From Sorangium cellulosum (GTDB taxonomy: Bacteria; Myxococcota_A; Polyangia; Polyangiales; Polyangiaceae): a DNA stretch of 34,315 bases. Positions within the stretch are counted from its first letter, which is position 1. Each line of letters opens with the position of its first letter. Under the pieces are notes generated by a model. It made no database searches and was not told where the DNA came from. It was given only the letters and a program-made list of their open reading frames with translations. Location of the stretch: NCBI GenBank assembly GCA_020720045.1, contig DYPH01000063.1, forward strand, positions 1 to 34,315. The letters are read 5' to 3'. A program made the translations under genes and the position numbers. This document shows, piece by piece, positions 8,416-32,258 of the stretch.

Positions 8416-9543
8416 TTAGAGAGTTCTGCGCGCCGTTTCCTCACCGCCTTTGGCGGTTCCGGGCGGACGCGCACCGAGCCGCCTCACTTCGACGTCGAAG
8501 TGGTCGTCGCCGCGCTCTTGGAAGCCGACTTCGGCGACCCCAAAGAGGGCGAGCGTCTCCGCTTGGGTCGTGGTGTGGAGCGACGGCGCGAGCGTGCTGA
8601 AGCGCCCGCCGCCGCCGAGGGCCATCGGCAGGAGGAGCTGGTCGGCGAGGTGCTCGCCGGCAAAGACGCCAGCGGCATCCCACCGGAGGAACTGCTCGCA
8701 GGAGTCGCGGGCCACGGTCTCTGCGGAGAGACCACGCTCGCCGAAGGTGACGAAATACTCGGCAAACTCAGCATCTTCGTAGCGATGCTTGGCTCGCACT
8801 CCGTAGATGTTCCCCGCGCAGAGAGCATCTTCGTAGGTGATCGTCTCCAGGTGGCGCCGGTCGAGGGTCTTCCCGTGGACCTGTCCGAGGAGGGAGATCG
8901 CTTGCGTGTGCTCCCGCTTGCCGGCGGCACTCGGGATTTTCGCAATTTCTACGACTGAGTTCAGCTCCACCTCGCCGGCGGCTCGAAGGAGATCGCAGGC
9001 GACAAGTCCCGTTGAGGAAGGGCGCAGCGTCACCTCGACTTTTCCGCCACCTGCCGGGTAAAAGCCGGGGCGGATGAGCTTCGCATCGAGGTGAACGCCG
9101 AAGCGCCGGAGGACCGGCACGAAGGCGTTGACGAAGAAGCTCCAGGGGGGCGCCATCGGGTTGTGGGTCCCCCCTTCCAACGTGATCGTGATCGGTTCCG
9201 ACGCCGGTTTTGAAAGCAAAATCGGAAGGATCGTCTGCAGGACGAGCATGGTGCTCCCCGCGCTCCCGATGGCAAATGTGTAATTTGCATGTTTTGGGGG
9301 CGTCTGGGGCCGGAAGGTCACCTTCTGGGATCCGAGGGCGATCCCGGTCACCTCGGCGGCGCAGGTTTCCGTGGCGGCGCGGATCGCCATCATGTGCTGG
9401 CGCATCAAACCCGGTTTCTCGCGACCGGCTCGGATGTTCTCGAGCACGATTGGGCGCCCCGTGATGGCAGAGAGAGTCAACGAGGTGCGAAGGATTTGGC
9501 CGCCCCCCTCGCCGCGGGAGCCGTCAATGATGAGCGGATACAT
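8416..9543 (-). CDS. rtcA: RNA 3'-terminal phosphate cyclase RtcA
   Basis: A 375-residue ATP-dependent cyclase that converts RNA 3'-phosphates to 2',3'-cyclic phosphates, the ends used by RtcB and sensed by RtcR. Visible family blocks are IDGSRGEGGGQILRTSL at the N-terminus, the RTC signature PGFYPAGGGKVEV in the middle, and HLADQLLLPMAL followed by SLHTTT in the region of the catalytic His. I start at ATG 9543 (MYPLIIDGSRG), preceded by GGAG 11 nt upstream; the frame extends ten codons further without support. The gene follows rtcB by 51 nt in the same direction, so it is the second gene of rtcBA. Oddity: the last 17 codons are repeat B, so the native C-terminus has been replaced or extended (LGARPPGTAKGGEETARRTL). 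Confidence 0.95.
   Translation of the reverse strand: MYPLIIDGSRGEGGGQILRTSLTLSAITGRPIVLENIRAGREKPGLMRQHMMAIRAATETCAAEVTGIALGSQKVTFRPQTPPKHANYTFAIGSAGSTMLVLQTILPILLSKPASEPITITLEGGTHNPMAPPWSFFVNAFVPVLRRFGVHLDAKLIRPGFYPAGGGKVEVTLRPSSTGLVACDLLRAAGEVELNSVVEIAKIPSAAGKREHTQAISLLGQVHGKTLDRRHLETITYEDALCAGNIYGVRAKHRYEDAEFAEYFVTFGERGLSAETVARDSCEQFLRWDAAGVFAGEHLADQLLLPMALGGGGRFSTLAPSLHTTTQAETLALFGVAEVGFQERGDDHFDVEVRRLGARPPGTAKGGEETARRTL
8421..8472 (+). repeat. repeat B, copy 1 (inside rtcA 3' end)
   Basis: 52-bp element sharing almost its whole length with copies at 27348-27399 and 31839-31893. Outer stem GCGCG/CGCGC followed by CCG/CGG with a bulged A, inner stem CCGCC-TTT-GGCGG. Here it is antisense to rtcA and encodes the last residues of RtcA; the rtcA stop codon follows immediately. 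Confidence 0.85.
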
Positions 9544-10941: not shown

Positions 10942-10970
10942 TTTGGCTAGCGTCCCGCCTGTTTGGCTAG
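10942..10970. promoter_or_regulatory. paired TTTGGCTAG direct repeats, possible RtcR activator site
   Basis: Identical 9-mers TTTGGCTAG at 10942-10950 and 10962-10970, exactly 20 bp (about two helical turns) apart, just before the rtcR start and roughly 90-120 bp upstream of the rtcB start region. That is the usual distance for an enhancer-binding protein's upstream activator sequence. The role is inference. Confidence 0.4.
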
Positions 10971-10980
10971 TCTGTCGGCG

Positions 10981-12879
10981 ATGGCGCGCAAGAAGACGGT
11001 GGTGCTCGGACTCCTCGGAACGACCCTCGACGCCGGCCTCGGCCCGAACCGTTGGGAGCGCTGGCGGCCGACCGTCGACCTCCACCGGCTCCCCGATCTG
11101 ATCGTCGATCGCTTCGAGCTCTTTTACAACGGGAGCGCGGCGACGGCCGCGTCCGGCGCCCGTCCGTCGGCGACCGCCAGCAAATATCCTGGAAGCGGGG
11201 GCGCCGGAGACGGCGGGCCCACTTCAACAGGCGGTCGCGCGACGCGCGAGGCCCGGGACTCCGGCTTCGATCAGGCGCTCCCCCGCACGTCGGACCCGCA
11301 CGAGCTCCTCGCTCATCGCGTAAAGGCTGATATTCGTGAGCTTTCTCCGGAGACGCAGGTCAACCTGCACCGGCTCGCCATCGCCGACCCTTGGAATTTC
11401 GCCGAGGTCTACGAAGCGCTCCTCGACGTCGCCGAGGGGTACCCGTTCCGCGACGACGAGGAGTACCTCGTCCACCTCACCACCGGCAGCCACGTCGCCC
11501 AGATTTGCCTGTTCCTCCTTACGGAGGCCCGTTGGTTCCCTGCAAAATTGCTTCAAATTTCGCCGCCGCGCGTGCCGGGGGAGGACCGCAGCCGCCGCAA
11601 GTTCGATCGGGGCGGAGACCGTTCACGAAGCGGCGAGGGCCCGAAGAGCTGGGCCGACACCCGGCAGACGCGGGATCATGGGAGCTTCCAGATCTTCGAT
11701 CTCAATCTCTCTACCTACGACCGTCTTGGTACTCGTCTTGCGAAGATTCAGCAGGATGCCCAGGGGATCCTCAAGGCAGGTATCGCCACTCGAAACAAGC
11801 ATTTCAATCATACAATTGCGCGTATCGAGCAGGTGGCGACGTCGTCGACCTCGCCGATGCTCATCCTCGGGCCGACCGGCGCCGGCAAGAGCTTCCTCGC
11901 GCGCCGCATCTTTGATCTGAAGAAGGCGCGCCACCAGGTCGGCGGGGAGTTTGTCGATGTGAACTGCGCGACGATCCGCGGCGACGGCGCCATGAGCGCG
12001 CTTTTTGGCCATGCAAAAGGGGCATTTACTGGCGCGCAGGGGGCGCGGGACGGTCTCCTCGTCCGCGCCGACAAGGGGGTCCTCTTCCTCGATGAGATCG
12101 GGGAGCTCGGCCTTGAAGAGCAGGGGATGCTCCTGCGCGCCCTGGAGGAGAAGACCTTTCTCCCCCTCGGCGCCGACAAGCCTCGAAGCTCAGATTTTCA
12201 ATTGATCTCTGGGACGAATCGCGATTTGGCCGAAGCGGTCGCTGCGGGACTGTTTCGCGAGGATCTCTACGCCCGAATTCGCCTCTGGACCTTTCGCCTC
12301 CCGGGCCTCGCCGAGCGCCGGGAAGACCTCGCCCCGAACCTGGAACACGAACTCGCGCGGTGGGTCCAGTCGCGGAAGGCGCCGGTCGTATTTCCCGACG
12401 AAGCCAAGCGGCGCTACCTTGCATTTGCGGAAGCAAAAACAAGTGGTTGGACGGGGAATTTTCGCGACCTTTCGGCGAGCGTGGAGCGCCTCGTGACCCT
12501 CGCCGAAGGGGGGCGCATCACGGCGGCGCTCGTCGACGAAGAGATCCTCCGCCTCCAAGAGACCTGGCGGACGCCTACGCTCGCCGCGAGCGGTGCCGGT
12601 GGGGCGGGAAGCGCTGGAATTGCAAAGGAAGTTGCGCGTGGCGAGCAGCTCTTGAGCCGCGTCCTCGGGGCGGCGGCGGCCCGCGTCGATAGCTTCGATC
12701 GCGTCCAGCTCGCCCACGTGCTCGCCGTTTGCCTTGAGGCCGACTCCCTCTCCGAGGCGGGGCGCCAGCTTTTTGAGGTCTCTCGGACGGAGCGCGCGAC
12801 GGTAAACGACGCCGATCGTCTACGGAAATACCTCACAAAATGGGGGATTTCCTTCGATGCGATCAAGCGATCCGCATAA
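10981..12879 (+). CDS. rtcR: RtcR, CARF-domain sigma-54 activator of rtcBA
   Basis: A 632-residue bacterial enhancer-binding protein. Residues 4-245 are the CARF-type RtcR sensor (VVLGLLGTTLD, RWERWRPTVDL, VHLTTGSHVAQICLFLL, IFDLNLSTYD), known in E. coli to sense RNA ends carrying 2',3'-cyclic phosphate. The AAA+ domain has Walker A GPTGAGKS (297-304), the sigma-54 loop GAFTGA (347-352), Walker B VLFLDE (367-372) and the FREDLYARI block. The C-terminus carries a factor-like DNA-binding segment (SVNDADRLRKYL-like). Start ATG 10981 gives the standard N-terminus; a TTG at 10963 is in frame. Two stretches are absent from the E. coli protein as I recall it: about residues 57-104, which contain repeat A, and an Arg-rich stretch of about 35 residues at 199-234. 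Both fall in the sensor domain. Confidence 0.95.
   Translation: MARKKTVVLGLLGTTLDAGLGPNRWERWRPTVDLHRLPDLIVDRFELFYNGSAATAASGARPSATASKYPGSGGAGDGGPTSTGGRATREARDSGFDQALPRTSDPHELLAHRVKADIRELSPETQVNLHRLAIADPWNFAEVYEALLDVAEGYPFRDDEEYLVHLTTGSHVAQICLFLLTEARWFPAKLLQISPPRVPGEDRSRRKFDRGGDRSRSGEGPKSWADTRQTRDHGSFQIFDLNLSTYDRLGTRLAKIQQDAQGILKAGIATRNKHFNHTIARIEQVATSSTSPMLILGPTGAGKSFLARRIFDLKKARHQVGGEFVDVNCATIRGDGAMSALFGHAKGAFTGAQGARDGLLVRADKGVLFLDEIGELGLEEQGMLLRALEEKTFLPLGADKPRSSDFQLISGTNRDLAEAVAAGLFREDLYARIRLWTFRLPGLAERREDLAPNLEHELARWVQSRKAPVVFPDEAKRRYLAFAEAKTSGWTGNFRDLSASVERLVTLAEGGRITAALVDEEILRLQETWRTPTLAASGAGGAGSAGIAKEVARGEQLLSRVLGAAAARVDSFDRVQLAHVLAVCLEADSLSEAGRQLFEVSRTERATVNDADRLRKYLTKWGISFDAIKRSA
11158..11232 (+). 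repeat. repeat A, copy 1 (inside rtcR)
   Basis: 75-bp unit beginning GCCCGTCCGTCGGCG and containing the GGAGACGGCGGGCCC block shared with 28354-28509 and 30266-30340. The central hairpin is CCAGC-AAATAT-CCTGG (11177-11192), with one inner pair lost in this copy. It is translated in the frame ARPSA...AGDGGP, the same as the other copies. Confidence 0.85.
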
Positions 12880-27347: not shown

Positions 27348-27399
27348 GCGCGTCCGCCCGGAAGCGCCGAAGGCGGTGAGGAAACGGCGCGCAGGACTC
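27348..27399 (-). repeat. repeat B, copy 2 (intergenic, upstream of tRNA-Arg)
   Basis: Same 52-bp element as 8421-8472, in the reverse orientation. Outer stem GCGCG/CGCGC kept; inner stem CCGCC-TTC-GGCGC has one mismatched closing pair. It lies one base before the TTGACA box of the tRNA promoter. Confidence 0.85.
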
Positions 27400-27440: not shown

Positions 27441-27514
27441 GCGTCGCTAGCTCAGTTGGATAGAGCGTTGGTCTCCGAAGCCGAAGGTCGTAGGTTCGAA
27501 TCCTACGCGACGCG
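27441..27514 (+). tRNA. tRNA-Arg (anticodon CCG)
   Basis: 74-nt cloverleaf. Acceptor GCGTCGC/GCGACGC with discriminator G, D-arm with AGCTCAGTTGGATAGAGC, anticodon loop CTCCGAA giving CCG (reads CGG), variable loop AGGTC, and T-arm GTAGG-TTCGAAT-CCTAC. CCA is not encoded (GCAAAA follows). Confidence 0.97.
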
Positions 27515-28215: not shown

Positions 28216-28923
28216 ATGAGTTCACGCCCCCTCCTCGAAGCAGCCTTCTGGCTCTTCGGCAGTGCCACCACGGTGTTCGCCCTCTATTCCGGCGGCGGCA
28301 TCGTCGTCCCGTTCCTCCTTGCCCCCGGCCGCCTCCGTCTCCGCGTCGCGAAGGCCCGTCCGTCGGCGTCGACCCGCGACTTGGCGGGCAGAGGCGACGC
28401 CGGAGACGGCGGGCCCGCAAGGACAGGGGCCCGTCCGTTCGCGACCGCCAGCGAAATTGCTGGGAGCGGCGTCGCGAGAGACGGCGGGCCCACTTCGACA
28501 GGGGCCCGTGTCTCGCTCTCCGGCATCGACCCGACCGCGATCGCGGTCTCGTCGTTTGGGATCGGAATTTTTCCCGCGATTTTCGCCCCTTTCGGAAGCT
28601 GGGGCGCTTGGGTTGGCGTCGTTGTCGGCGCGGTCTTGTGCGGCTTCGGGTGCCGCCTGCGCGTTCACGCCACGCCCGCGCGGACGACGGTGGTTCGCAC
28701 GGTGTTGTTCGTCGTCCCCTGGCGTTGGCGCTCGTACGCGAGCCCCCCGTCGGCGTTCGTGGATGGTTGGGGGGACTTCTCCGACCCGGAGTCGCTCCAG
28801 CTCGCCTTCGACGGCGAAGAGGAGCCTTTGGAGCTCGGCTGGGGAGGAGACCCGGGGCCCTCCTGCGACGCGCTCGCCGCGCGCATCAACGAGGCCATGG
28901 CCTCCTTGCAGCATCCGCGATGA
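28216..28923 (+). CDS. membrane protein, with two repeat A units inserted
   Basis: A 235-residue protein of unknown function with three or so TM segments (FWLFGSATTVFALYSGGGIVV near the N-terminus; IGIFPAIFAPFG and WGAWVGVVVGAVLCGFGCR in the middle) and an acidic soluble C-terminus. Between the first TM segment and the rest, residues about 47-98 are two in-frame copies of repeat A (ARPSASTRDLAG, then ARPFATASEIAG), a loop that does not look native. Under likely control of the divergent TetR regulator, which often acts on membrane exporters, but no transporter motif is visible. Convergent with the lipoprotein gene (31-nt gap). Confidence 0.75.
   Translation: MSSRPLLEAAFWLFGSATTVFALYSGGGIVVPFLLAPGRLRLRVAKARPSASTRDLAGRGDAGDGGPARTGARPFATASEIAGSGVARDGGPTSTGARVSLSGIDPTAIAVSSFGIGIFPAIFAPFGSWGAWVGVVVGAVLCGFGCRLRVHATPARTTVVRTVLFVVPWRWRSYASPPSAFVDGWGDFSDPESLQLAFDGEEEPLELGWGGDPGPSCDALAARINEAMASLQHPR
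28354..28509 (+). repeat. repeat A, copies 2 and 3 in tandem
   Basis: Two 75-bp units (28354-28428 and 28429-28503) plus a trailing GCCCGT. Central hairpin CCCGC-GACTTG-GCGGG in the first and CCAGC-GAAATT-GCTGG in the second: both arms change together. The period of 75 bp equals 25 codons, so the host frame is kept. Confidence 0.9.
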
Positions 28924-29443: not shown

Positions 29444-30051
29444 CGGCGCTCCGTACCGCCCCGAGGTTCATCGTCCGGCCGCGCGTCGTTCACAACGGAC
29501 GGGCTTGGCGGCGGCGCGGCAGCCAGTGTTTCCATGAGCAGGGCGAGCTCGTCCTGCTCATCGGCCGGCAAGCAGCCCGCGGCCGTGATCGCGTCGAAGA
29601 CGTCGAGCCCTTCGCGGACCGGGAACCACGTGACAGTGTCGCTCGCAACCGCAAGAAAAGTTTCCGGATTCGCGATCCCGAGCGCTTCGCTGTGGCCCAC
29701 GAGGGCCTTCCAACACGCGGCCAACGCACGCCCATGCCAGTGGGAGCGGTTCGGCACCGCCCACACGCGATCAAAGCGGAGGACGATCCGCACCGCCCGA
29801 TCCCGCCGGAACCGCATGTATTCGCTGACGATAAGAGGGAGCGGCGCCGCGAACACTACCCCCACGAACACGGCGGCGATCGGCTGAACGAAGGCCAGCG
29901 CCACCACGCCAAGCACCGGAAGCGCCATCGCGAGCTGCCACGGCGCGAGGCTCCACCGTTCGCGCCAGCGGGCCTTCCGCCGCCACGCCTCGACCGCCGG
30001 CACCACGACCGGCTCACGGGTCGCTAACGTCCTGTAATCGGTCGCTTTCAC
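29383..30051 (-). CDS. two-TM paralogue 1 with replaced C-terminus
   Basis: A 222-residue member of a family present here in four versions. Start GTG 30051 (KATDYRTLATREPVVVPAVE). Shared blocks: N-terminal YRTLAT-EPVVVPAVEAWRR, two TM helices (LPVLGVVALAFVQPIAAVFVG and following), RIVLRFDR, NPETFLAVASDT-WFPVREGLDVF and GCLP. The C-terminus differs from the intact paralogue at 30853: instead of EPLRFRLEYV...NELFASxYCV it ends in an Arg-rich tail encoded across repeat C. Function unknown; the soluble domain faces one side of the membrane. Confidence 0.7.
   Translation of the reverse strand: MKATDYRTLATREPVVVPAVEAWRRKARWRERWSLAPWQLAMALPVLGVVALAFVQPIAAVFVGVVFAAPLPLIVSEYMRFRRDRAVRIVLRFDRVWAVPNRSHWHGRALAACWKALVGHSEALGIANPETFLAVASDTVTWFPVREGLDVFDAITAAGCLPADEQDELALLMETLAAAPPPSPSVVNDARPDDEPRGGTERRWQNHRLRPAKPRIGEQLRS
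29396..29431 (+). repeat. repeat C, copy 2
   Basis: 36-bp match to 18523-18556. It lies in the 61-nt overlap between the end of paralogue 1 and the start of the lipoprotein gene, contributing coding sequence to both. Confidence 0.6.
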
Positions 30052-30844
30052 GTGCCACGCTCGCCAGCGAGGGCGACGCAATAGCCGCTCGCAAAGAGCT
30101 CGTTGCTGGTCCGCGGGTCGCGCCCGTCGACGTACTCGAGGCGAAACCGGAGCGGCTCCGTCGACGCGTCCGTCCGCGAAGCGGGAGACGGCGCGTCGTT
30201 GCCAGCGGACGGGGGCGGGCTCGCGAGGATCGCGACGATCCGCGCAAGATCGGCCCCCTCGCGGGTCCGTTGTGAAGGGGCCCGCCGTCTCCGGCGTCGC
30301 CGCGGCCAGCAAATTCGCTGGTCGACGCCGACGGACGGGCCCCGGGCAAACATCCGTTGGCGAGGGGGCCGAAGACGGCGAGCCCTTCGTGAACAGGGAA
30401 CCAGCGATCGGTGTCGCTCGCAACCGTAAGAAATACTTCCGGATTCGTGACCCCGAACTCCTCCGCGCGGGCCACGGTTTCTGACCAGCTCGCGGCAAGC
30501 GCGCTGCCGAAATAATGGGCGCGCGTCGGCACCGCCCGCGGTCGATCGAAGCGAAGAACGATCCGCACCTCCCGCTCCCAACGCGCCTGATGAAGTTCAT
30601 AGACGGTGAGCAGCGTGCCAAAAGCGGCCAGCAGGAGGCCGACTCCGGCGGCAAGCGGTTCGGCGACCGCGAGGGCGACCGCCAGCGTCATCACGCCGCT
30701 CACCACGAAAGGCGCCGTGATGAGGACCGCAAGCGCCTTGCGCCACCGTTTGTCGCGCCCGGCTTTCCGTCGCCAGGCCTCTACCTCCGGCTCCACCGTG
30801 ACCGGCTCATGGGTCGCTAACGTCCGGTAATCGCGTGGTTCCAC
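30048..30844 (-). pseudogene. two-TM paralogue 2, frameshifted by repeat A
   Basis: Start GTG 30844 (EPRDYRTLATHEPVTVEPEVE), two TM helices, RIVLRFDR, NPEVFLTVASDTDRWFPVHEG and LANGCLPG all in one frame. At GCLPG the frame enters repeat A (ARPSAST) and leaves it displaced, running on as Arg/Ser-rich nonsense to 30014. The native C-terminus survives intact in the next frame (ADLARIVAILASPPP ... EPLRFRLEYVDGRDP ... NELFASGYCVAL), ending at 30048. Compared with the intact paralogue at 30853 the net gain at the site is about 74 nt, not a multiple of three. The unspoiled tail argues that the break is recent. Confidence 0.8.
30266..30340 (-). repeat. repeat A, copy 4 (breaks paralogue 2)
   Basis: 75-bp unit on the minus strand with perfect central hairpin CCAGC-GAATTT-GCTGG (30306-30321) and the CGCCG-GAGA-CGGCG second hairpin. 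It is entered in the same reading frame as the other copies but exits out of frame. Confidence 0.88.
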
Positions 30845-30852
30845 CGTCGGTT

Positions 30853-31548
30853 TCAGGCGCGCAGGTCGCGGGTCTGGCCGACGCAATAGCTGCTCGCGAA
30901 GAGCTCGTTGGCGCTGCGCCCGTCGCTTGCATCGACGTACTCGAGGCGAAACCGGAGCGGTTCGTTGGACTTGCCCTTCCGCCTCGACGGGCTCGGCGGC
31001 GGCGCCGTCGAAAGCGTATCCACGAGCCGCGCAAGGTCGGCCTGGTCTTGGGCACCGGGCAAGCAGCCGTTGGCGAGCGCTCGGAAGACGTCGAGCCCTT
31101 CGCGGACGGAGAACCACCGATCAGTTTCACTCGCAACAGCCAGGAATCCTTCCGGATTCGCGACCCCCAGCGCTTCCGCGCGGGCCACGATTTCCTTCCA
31201 ACTTGCGGCAAGCGCGCCCCCGTCCGCCACGGAGTGCGTCACCCCGGGGCGATCCCACCGAAGAACAATCCGCGCCTCCCGCTCCCAGCGCGCCTGCCGA
31301 AACCCATGGATGCTCATCAGGGTGCCGAGAGCGGCCAACACGAGGCCGACTCCGGCGGCGAACGGGTCACCGAGCGAAACGCCGAACGCTGCCACCAGGA
31401 CCCCGCACAGCGCCACCGGGACCACGGTTACGGTCACACGCACCTTACGCCCCGCTTCGCGCCGCGCCACCTCCCGTCGCCAGGCCTCGACGGCCGGCAC
31501 CACGACCGGTTCACTCGTCGCTAACGTCCGGTAATTCGGCGCCTCCAC
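30853..31548 (-). CDS. two-TM paralogue 3, intact reference copy
   Basis: A 231-residue complete member of the local family. Start GTG 31548 (EAPNYRTLATSEPVVVPAVE). Order: N-terminal motif, basic region, two TM helices (VVPVALCGVLVAAFGVSLG, FAAGVGLVLAALGTLMS), RIVLRWDR, NPEGFLAVASETDRWFSVREGLDVF, GCLPGAQDQADLARLVDTL, then EPLRFRLEYVDASDG and NELFASSYCV. It ends 8 nt before the start of paralogue 2, consistent with tandem duplication and one transcript. I do not recognise the family; the first and last motifs are the best handles for a search. Confidence 0.75.
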   Translation of the reverse strand: MEAPNYRTLATSEPVVVPAVEAWRREVARREAGRKVRVTVTVVPVALCGVLVAAFGVSLGDPFAAGVGLVLAALGTLMSIHGFRQARWEREARIVLRWDRPGVTHSVADGGALAASWKEIVARAEALGVANPEGFLAVASETDRWFSVREGLDVFRALANGCLPGAQDQADLARLVDTLSTAPPPSPSRRKGKSNEPLRFRLEYVDASDGRSANELFASSYCVGQTRDLRA

Positions 31549-31999
31549 GGCTCTCCGAGTTAGTCGGTTTCGCGCCCGCTATCAAACCCGGGTCGGGATT
31601 TTCCGCCGCGAGCGCCCCCCGCGCGAGGCAGCTGTTGAGGACGGTGAGCCGCATCGAGAGACGGACACACCACGCGATCGGCGCGAGCAGGACCGCGAGG
31701 CTCATCCCCGGCCCGGACAGGATGTTGACCACGATCCAGCCGACCACCAAGAAGCCGGCGAGCATGCGGTTCGCGACGCACTGCTCCTGCTCCCGGCGAA
31801 CGCGCGCCAGGTCGATGGGCGCCCCGAAAGGGTGGTTGTTGCTCGTCCGCCCGGAACCGCCGAAGGCGGTGAGGAAACGGCGAGCACAGATTCAGTTGTC
31901 GCAAACGACGGTCTTCTGCGTCGTCGGGATGCCGCAAAAGTCACAGCTCAATGCGATCGTCGCCGGCTGGCGGTAAGGCCCGGAACTACGGTGGCTCAT
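31511..31999 (-). pseudogene. zinc-ribbon membrane protein gene split by repeat B
   Basis: Starts at ATG 31999, overlapping the upstream stop as ATGA. Residues 19-22 are CDFC and 33-35 are CDN; codon 36, where the fourth zinc-binding Cys of a CxxC...CxxC ribbon belongs, is TGA. The frame then runs open through repeat B (RFLTAFGGSGRT) and on into NNHPFGAPIDLARVRREQEQ, two TM segments (AGFLVVGWIVVNIL and following) and a tail ending at 31511. Removing the 54 nt of repeat rejoins TG and C to restore the Cys codon. Translation probably stops at residue 35; the 3' part could restart at ATG 31765. Confidence 0.7.
31839..31893 (-). repeat. repeat B, copy 3 (interrupts zinc-ribbon gene)
   Basis: About 54 nt on the minus strand. 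The outer stem is GCTCG/CGAGC, where copies 1 and 2 have GCGCG/CGCGC: a paired change that keeps the stem. Inner stem CCGCC-TTC-GGCGG. Confidence 0.88.
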
Positions 32000-32208
32000 T
32001 GCTTCCTCTCCTGCAAATCATCGGGATGGGCGACGCAATAGCCGGTCGCGAACGCCAGCACGCCCATCACCGCGAAGGGGCCCGTCGTAACAAGCGCGAT
32101 TGCTTTACGCGCCTCTCCGCGCCTTCGGGCGCTCCGTCGCCAGGCGTCGACCGCCGGCACGATCACCGGTTCGCGCGCCGCTAACGTTCGGTAATTGCGC
32201 GCTTCCAC
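31996..32208 (-). pseudogene. two-TM paralogue 4, internal deletion
   Basis: A 70-codon remnant from GTG 32208. The N-terminus (EARNYRTLAAREPVIVPAVD) and first TM helix match the other paralogues, then the sequence jumps inside the TM region to FATGYCVAHPDD, which corresponds to the last residues of the intact copy (FASSYCV). About 150 residues are missing in frame. Its stop overlaps the start of the zinc-ribbon gene (ATGA). The leader GTTTGATGGCGGGCGCGAAA is shared with the leader of paralogue 3, so a segment larger than the gene was duplicated. A small membrane peptide could still be made. Confidence 0.65.
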
Positions 32209-32258
32209 CGCCGGTCGACCTAGCCGGTTTCGCGCCCGCCATCAAACGGGGGGATGCC

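Follow-up and report, generated by a model that had tools for sequence, protein, structure and literature searches.

A putatively mobile palindromic repeat in a Myxococcales genus and the zinc-ribbon gene that it probably interrupted

Palindromic repeats that form part of protein-coding genes are best known from Rickettsia. There, palindromic elements of several families per genome are found in frame inside unrelated conserved proteins (PMC10969869), and both their origin and their effect on these proteins are still debated. A further point of comparison are the REPs, some of which are intragenic and located in repair and replication genes; their CGTC superfamily is defined by an unpaired terminal CGTC next to a stem of 8-9 bp, and these CGTC REPs have no dedicated transposase (PMC3733652).

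Here we describe a palindrome, referred to as repeat B in the following, which occurs in a stretch of 34,315 nucleotides from Sorangium cellulosum. We call this whole stretch the window, its genome G000, and a second genome of the same genus, which served for comparison, G001. Judging from the sequences, it is quite likely that a copy of this mobile repeat added 54 nt to a small gene confined to the genus, splitting its last cysteine codon, and that the gene is probably a pseudogene as a result. Repeat B itself would be a short, non-autonomous mobile palindrome that is limited, in the data searched, to one Myxococcales genus. The relevant features of the window are collected in Table 1.

Table 1. 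Repeat copies and parts of the interrupted gene in the window
Feature	Position	Strand	Remarks and basis
5' part of interrupted gene	31895..31999	-	35 codons, with the start codon, the first CxxC and the CDN of the zinc ribbon; translation, orthologue alignment
TGA stop	31892..31894	-	host TG + first insert base A; TGC at the empty site and in other copies; sequence
Inserted repeat B, 54 nt	31839..31892	-	leader AATCTGTGCT, 39-nt core, AGCAA; empty site in G001
Repeat B, 39-nt core	31844..31882	-	162 genome copies, up to 3 mismatches
3' part of interrupted gene	31511..31838	-	NHPFGAPIDLARV... and hydrophobic segments, to stop; orthologue alignment, hydropathy
Repeat B core, second window copy	27351..27389	-	upstream of a hypothetical gene; same site in G001
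Repeat B core, third window copy	8431..8469	+	3' end of rtcA, antisense to the gene
Family A core	11161..11215	-	in frame within rtcR, whose RtcR domain match is in several pieces
Family A core, first of head-to-tail pair	28357..28411	-	75-nt period
Family A core, second of head-to-tail pair	28432..28486	-	
Family A core	30283..30337	+	
Family C core	30167..30193	-	45-nt period elsewhere

Repeat B compared with described palindromes

Allowing for up to three mismatches, we counted at least 162 copies of the 39-nt core in G000 versus none for a control with the reversed pattern. The window holds three copies versus none expected from 100 shuffles. G001 harbors 65 copies, and no copy turned up in 57 further genomes from the same family and order. 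An exact-core scan of the GTDB species set, which may omit the window's own genome, likewise returned G001 only. Since a scan of IMG/VR gave no exact core match, we see no link to phages. With Rfam, nothing but a tRNA was recognized in the window, and the literature that we searched holds no description of these repeats in Myxococcales, which is not proof of absence. The second window copy of the core (27351-27389) sits about 50 nt from a tRNA gene (27441-27514).

The insert in the zinc-ribbon gene forms a hairpin whose outer stem is bulged (-27.3 kcal/mol, z -2.6). Among the copies, the two outermost stem positions covary, reading either GTGCG…CGCA or GTGCT…AGCA, as judged by eye and not by a formal count. 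Neighboring copies are arranged head to tail in 40 cases and otherwise in just one, with a spacing of 57 nt in 32 of 38 intervals.

Like the Rickettsia palindromic elements, repeat B is a dispersed palindrome, occurs in frame in conserved proteins and belongs to one of several families in its genome. It differs from them in its unit length of 54-57 nt, compared with about 150 bp, in its occurrence in Myxococcales instead of Rickettsia, in its head-to-tail arrays and in the boxes that are common to three families (see below); we set the two apart by these features.

With the CGTC and GTAG REPs, repeat B shares the character of a short, high-copy hairpin with some copies inside repair or replication genes, and on the other strand its core begins with CGTCCG. 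However, this CGTC is paired inside the longer, bulged outer stem instead of being unpaired and terminal, the unit exceeds the 20-40 bp of REPs, and its head-to-tail arrangement, rare in REPs, differs from that of CGTC REPs, which mainly form head-to-head dimers, with a negligible share of head-to-tail pairs. The leader, whose consensus is CTGCATCCGTGC, also lacks the GTAG tag, and repeat B is not located at the borders of the RAYT-like Y1 genes (see below). As the two REP superfamilies are defined (PMC3733652), repeat B belongs to neither of them.

Its short, non-autonomous and palindromic nature is reminiscent of MITEs, as may be the apparent target duplication of 5 nt at many sites. In contrast to MITEs, its ends are asymmetric, with a 5' leader that has no 3' counterpart, and no clear target duplication is seen at the zinc-ribbon site. 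Moreover, no autonomous partner or parent transposon with ends matching repeat B was found, the Y1 family being the one examined among the transposases. All in all, repeat B behaves like the Rickettsia palindromic elements and like intragenic REPs.

The interrupted zinc-ribbon gene and its empty site

On the minus strand of the window, an open reading frame begins with an ATG at 31999 and encodes MSHRSSGPYRQPATIALSCDFCGIPTTQKTVVCDN, followed by a TGA. After this stop, the frame remains open via ICARRFLTAFGGSGRTSN into NHPFGAPIDLARVRREQEQC…/NHPFGAPIDLARV... and ends with a stop codon at 31511. In a protein search of 97 related genomes, we found the gene only in G000, where it is in two pieces, and in G001. 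The G001 orthologue (G001:C536:2853-3191) has no internal stop and encodes …VCDNCSHPIGAPIDLARV… / …VCDNCSHPIGAPIDLARVRREQEKC… without a break. When the DNA of both genomes is aligned, a single gap of 54 nt separates the host TG (31893-31894) from the host C (31838), i.e. TG|54 nt|C, and CDNC is regained in frame upon its removal. The alignment further reveals synteny upstream. The downstream frame in G000 is still open, with an in-frame indel of 21 nt. Hydropathy analysis indicates long hydrophobic stretches in the proteins of both genomes.

These results confirm the observation made in a previous, sequence-only reading of the window and support part of its interpretation, namely that the repeat splits a zinc ribbon in its fourth cysteine codon and that it entered between TG and C without loss of target sequence: the gap lies precisely at this position, and CDNC is intact in the uninterrupted orthologue. 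That reading had proposed a search for such an orthologue, and the one in G001 has the predicted CDNC as well as the downstream hydrophobic part; an orthologue without the fourth cysteine or the downstream part, named there as the outcome that would separate the two pieces, was sought and did not occur. The insert is indeed 18 codons long and open apart from the TGA at the junction, with the frame open on both sides and throughout. The predicted deletion product has CDNC in frame, as described, but continues as CDNC-NHPFG and not as CDNC-NNHPFG, that is, with one N fewer.

By contrast, the term 'excision footprint', used in the same reading, implies the wrong direction, as the evidence favors, and points to, the insertion of a repeat copy in the window's lineage and not an excision. 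As no outgroup has the gene, the arguments for this direction are the intact ribbon in G001 and the copy number of the repeat. The lack of an outgroup orthologue among the 97 genomes leaves some room for the opposite event, a precise loss of the repeat in G001, which we regard as unlikely: G001 keeps an intact CxxC-CxxC ribbon without any remnant of the repeat, and at many further loci one of the two genomes carries the repeat and the other does not, the empty sites resembling plain target sequence in both directions.

The target of the insertion would be a small genus-specific gene for a protein with a zinc ribbon and hydrophobic segments, and the copy of repeat B would have been placed between the TG and the C of a cysteine codon. 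As the first inserted base is A and not the usual C, the junction reads TGA, and translation should stop after CDN. In 61 comparable copies, the base following the leader TG is C in 57, G in two, T in one and A in one, and this A, which yields TGA, is unique to the copy in the zinc-ribbon gene. A single changed junction base would in this case make an otherwise tolerated insert gene-breaking. Because the G000 assembly is fragmented (357 contigs), a base error at the TGA is possible.

Between G000 and G001, dN/dS amounts to 1.21 for the whole gene and to 1.4-1.7 for the part after the stop, values that derive from one sequence pair with about 54 differences and cannot tell in which lineage constraint was lost. 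Since two neighboring genes have values of 0.19 and 0.10 in the same comparison, the gene seems to be without purifying selection. Most likely, the interrupted zinc-ribbon gene is a pseudogene in G000. Positions 29595-32252 of the window contain a tandem cluster of related small genes, whose paralogous units (families D1-D6) can be recognized by direct repeats of 58-262 nt that are about 62-83% identical.

Could the gene still give rise to a full protein, as the sequence-only reading had suggested? Through readthrough of the stop codon, the TGA and the open 18-codon insert would be translated into a full-length protein with an extra loop. Apart from the TGA, no stop interrupts the frame within the insert or in the parts that flank it, and sister copies in open frames inside enzymes are probably translated. 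However, such readthrough would need suppression of the TGA and still not regain the fourth cysteine codon, no other comparable copy has a stop at the junction, and a dN/dS of about 1.2, compared with 0.10-0.19 in the neighbors, does not suggest a protein under constraint. We consider this improbable.

A special case of decoding would be the incorporation of selenocysteine, given that the TGA aligns with a cysteine codon of the orthologue and that a stable hairpin begins within 10 nt, as in bacterial SECIS elements. Yet SelA was not found in the genome, which is rated 100% complete and in which control searches respond, and the best match to tRNA-Sec lies below the cut-off and is a tRNA-Ser. 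Furthermore, the hairpin is the repeat itself, which has more than 160 copies and is not tied to TGA elsewhere. This makes selenocysteine exceedingly improbable.

Occupied sites, empty sites and in-frame copies

To compare occupied and empty sites, the flanks of G000 copies were searched in G001 and those of G001 copies in G000, which yielded both empty and shared sites in both directions. Nine sites have a net insertion of 57 nt, and two have one of 54 nt, namely the zinc-ribbon gene and L072/L156; at four sites it is 42, 58, 63 and 72 nt, most of them with further changes nearby. In a comparison of 63 single copies, register 57 is the only one at which the bases to the left and right of the element agree more often than expected by chance, and this agreement spans about five positions (left -14 to -10, consensus GCTGC, z up to 4.5). 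Clean duplication is found at L032, with GATGC on both sides, and duplication with one change in the left copy at L041, L042, L067 and L029; the copies of the target duplication often differ by one base.

This 5-nt duplication is not seen at either of the 54-nt sites, both of which have ATCTGTGCT as their leader and AGCAA|C as their junction. We also considered that the zinc-ribbon site might have started out with an insertion of 57 nt and been shortened by 3 nt afterwards, an idea weakened by L072/L156 with the same net length of 54 nt and the same AGCAA junction. Because the two sites agree in leader and junction, without duplication, we take 54 nt to be a real variant length and not the product of a later loss, as far as the two sequences indicate.

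Some sites deviate from this general pattern. When L138 is compared with L160, about 15 nt (CACCTGCTCCCGTGC) are found on both sides of the element, many more than in the 5-nt duplication typical of other sites, and the sequence of the empty site is similar to the leader of the element itself. At two shared sites, L011 and L014, the flanks are highly similar to those in C525 and C105 of G001, but the loop, leader or stem of the B copies is not the same in the two genomes. This suggests that the element was replaced, underwent gene conversion or inserted more than once at the same position. At L036, the element at 1456 (minus strand) accounts for a net insertion of 58 nt, with coding sequence on both sides in different frames; this is likely another broken gene.

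Within genes, copies of repeat B are strongly biased in frame. Codon statistics trained on the genes of the window indicated clear coding on either side of the element at 17 sites, 12 of which keep strand and frame through it. The dominant readings of the element in open reading frames are RPPGTA.GGEETA and AVSSPP.AVPGG, the stop-containing frame is used by no long open reading frame, and the frame counts are non-uniform (p about 2e-4; 21 sites, counted by hand). According to Pfam matches, copies are located within domains, or in the space between two domains, in threonine synthase (PALP), a YggS-type protein, an Exonuc_V_gamma protein (an exonuclease V subunit), an ABC ATPase, XseA, a MOSC protein and FtsK. 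In the ABC ATPase, the copy separates the Walker A motif from the portion of the domain that was matched. Alignments to the sequences of solved YggS and threonine synthase structures show a gap at the insertion, and the threonine synthase gene of G001 lacks the insert. These sister copies, being in open frames inside enzymes, are probably translated.

Such copies also bear on the possibility of translational bypassing, in which the ribosome would leave the message at the AAC that precedes the TGA, skip the hairpin and resume at an identical AAC located 57 nt further downstream. In the zinc-ribbon gene, two matching AAC codons flank the hairpin insert and the first of them is directly followed by a stop, a layout that is known from the precedents in T4 gene 60 and in the byps of yeast (Magnusiomyces) mitochondria (PMC5009743). 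Unlike these precedents, however, the sister copies of repeat B are in frame and open, so that plain translation explains them; hopping would require neither their frame bias nor their avoidance of the stop-containing frame, and the net lengths are nearly all multiples of three. Moreover, the hop product, CDN-NHPFG, would still be devoid of the fourth cysteine. We deem bypassing very unlikely and favor an insertion that disrupted the gene.

Since the usual net length of 57 nt (sometimes 54 nt) is a multiple of three and most frames are open, insertions of repeat B would often be tolerated as a flexible insert of 18-19 residues, as with the Rickettsia palindromic elements. The many occupied/empty pairs in the same genes of G000 and G001 make the cost of such an insert and the target rule directly testable.

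Related families and a candidate mobilizer

Repeat B and two further families of palindromes, A and C, have the conserved boxes CGCCGTYTC and CGGACG in common. The periods of families A and C are 75 nt and 45 nt. In a search of relatives with a superfamily pattern built on these boxes, 216 matches were obtained in G000, 142 in G001 and background counts outside the genus. We tentatively propose, as a possibility rather than a probability, that the three families form one new superfamily of protein-coding mobile palindromes, with a bulged stem CGCCGTYTC / CGGACG, short target duplications, head-to-tail amplification and unit lengths of 75, 57 and 45 nt; these lengths would be held at multiples of three because much of the life of such elements is spent inside genes. 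The rtcR gene of the window (10963-12879, plus strand) carries its family A palindrome between RtcR domain stretches.

The transposases examined belong to the RAYT-like Y1 family, which is amplified in the genus: G000 contains 12 matches and G001 contains 14. Many of its copies are 86-92% identical, and relatives only 25-39%. The Y1 genes (L201-L220, e.g. G000:C83:2540-3481) have a conserved upstream border, CCCCCCTGGCCCGGGCCAGG..., which is unlike repeat B, and repeat B is not located at Y1 borders. We regard this family as no more than a candidate mobilizer of repeat B. Another repeat that resembles a palindrome, GTTCTCCGATCCGGCGTCTCGCCGGGCGGAGAC, is found repeatedly, both in the vicinity of family C and downstream of Y1 genes (L023 at about 1460, L095 and the 3' flanks of L201-L220), and perhaps represents a fourth family.
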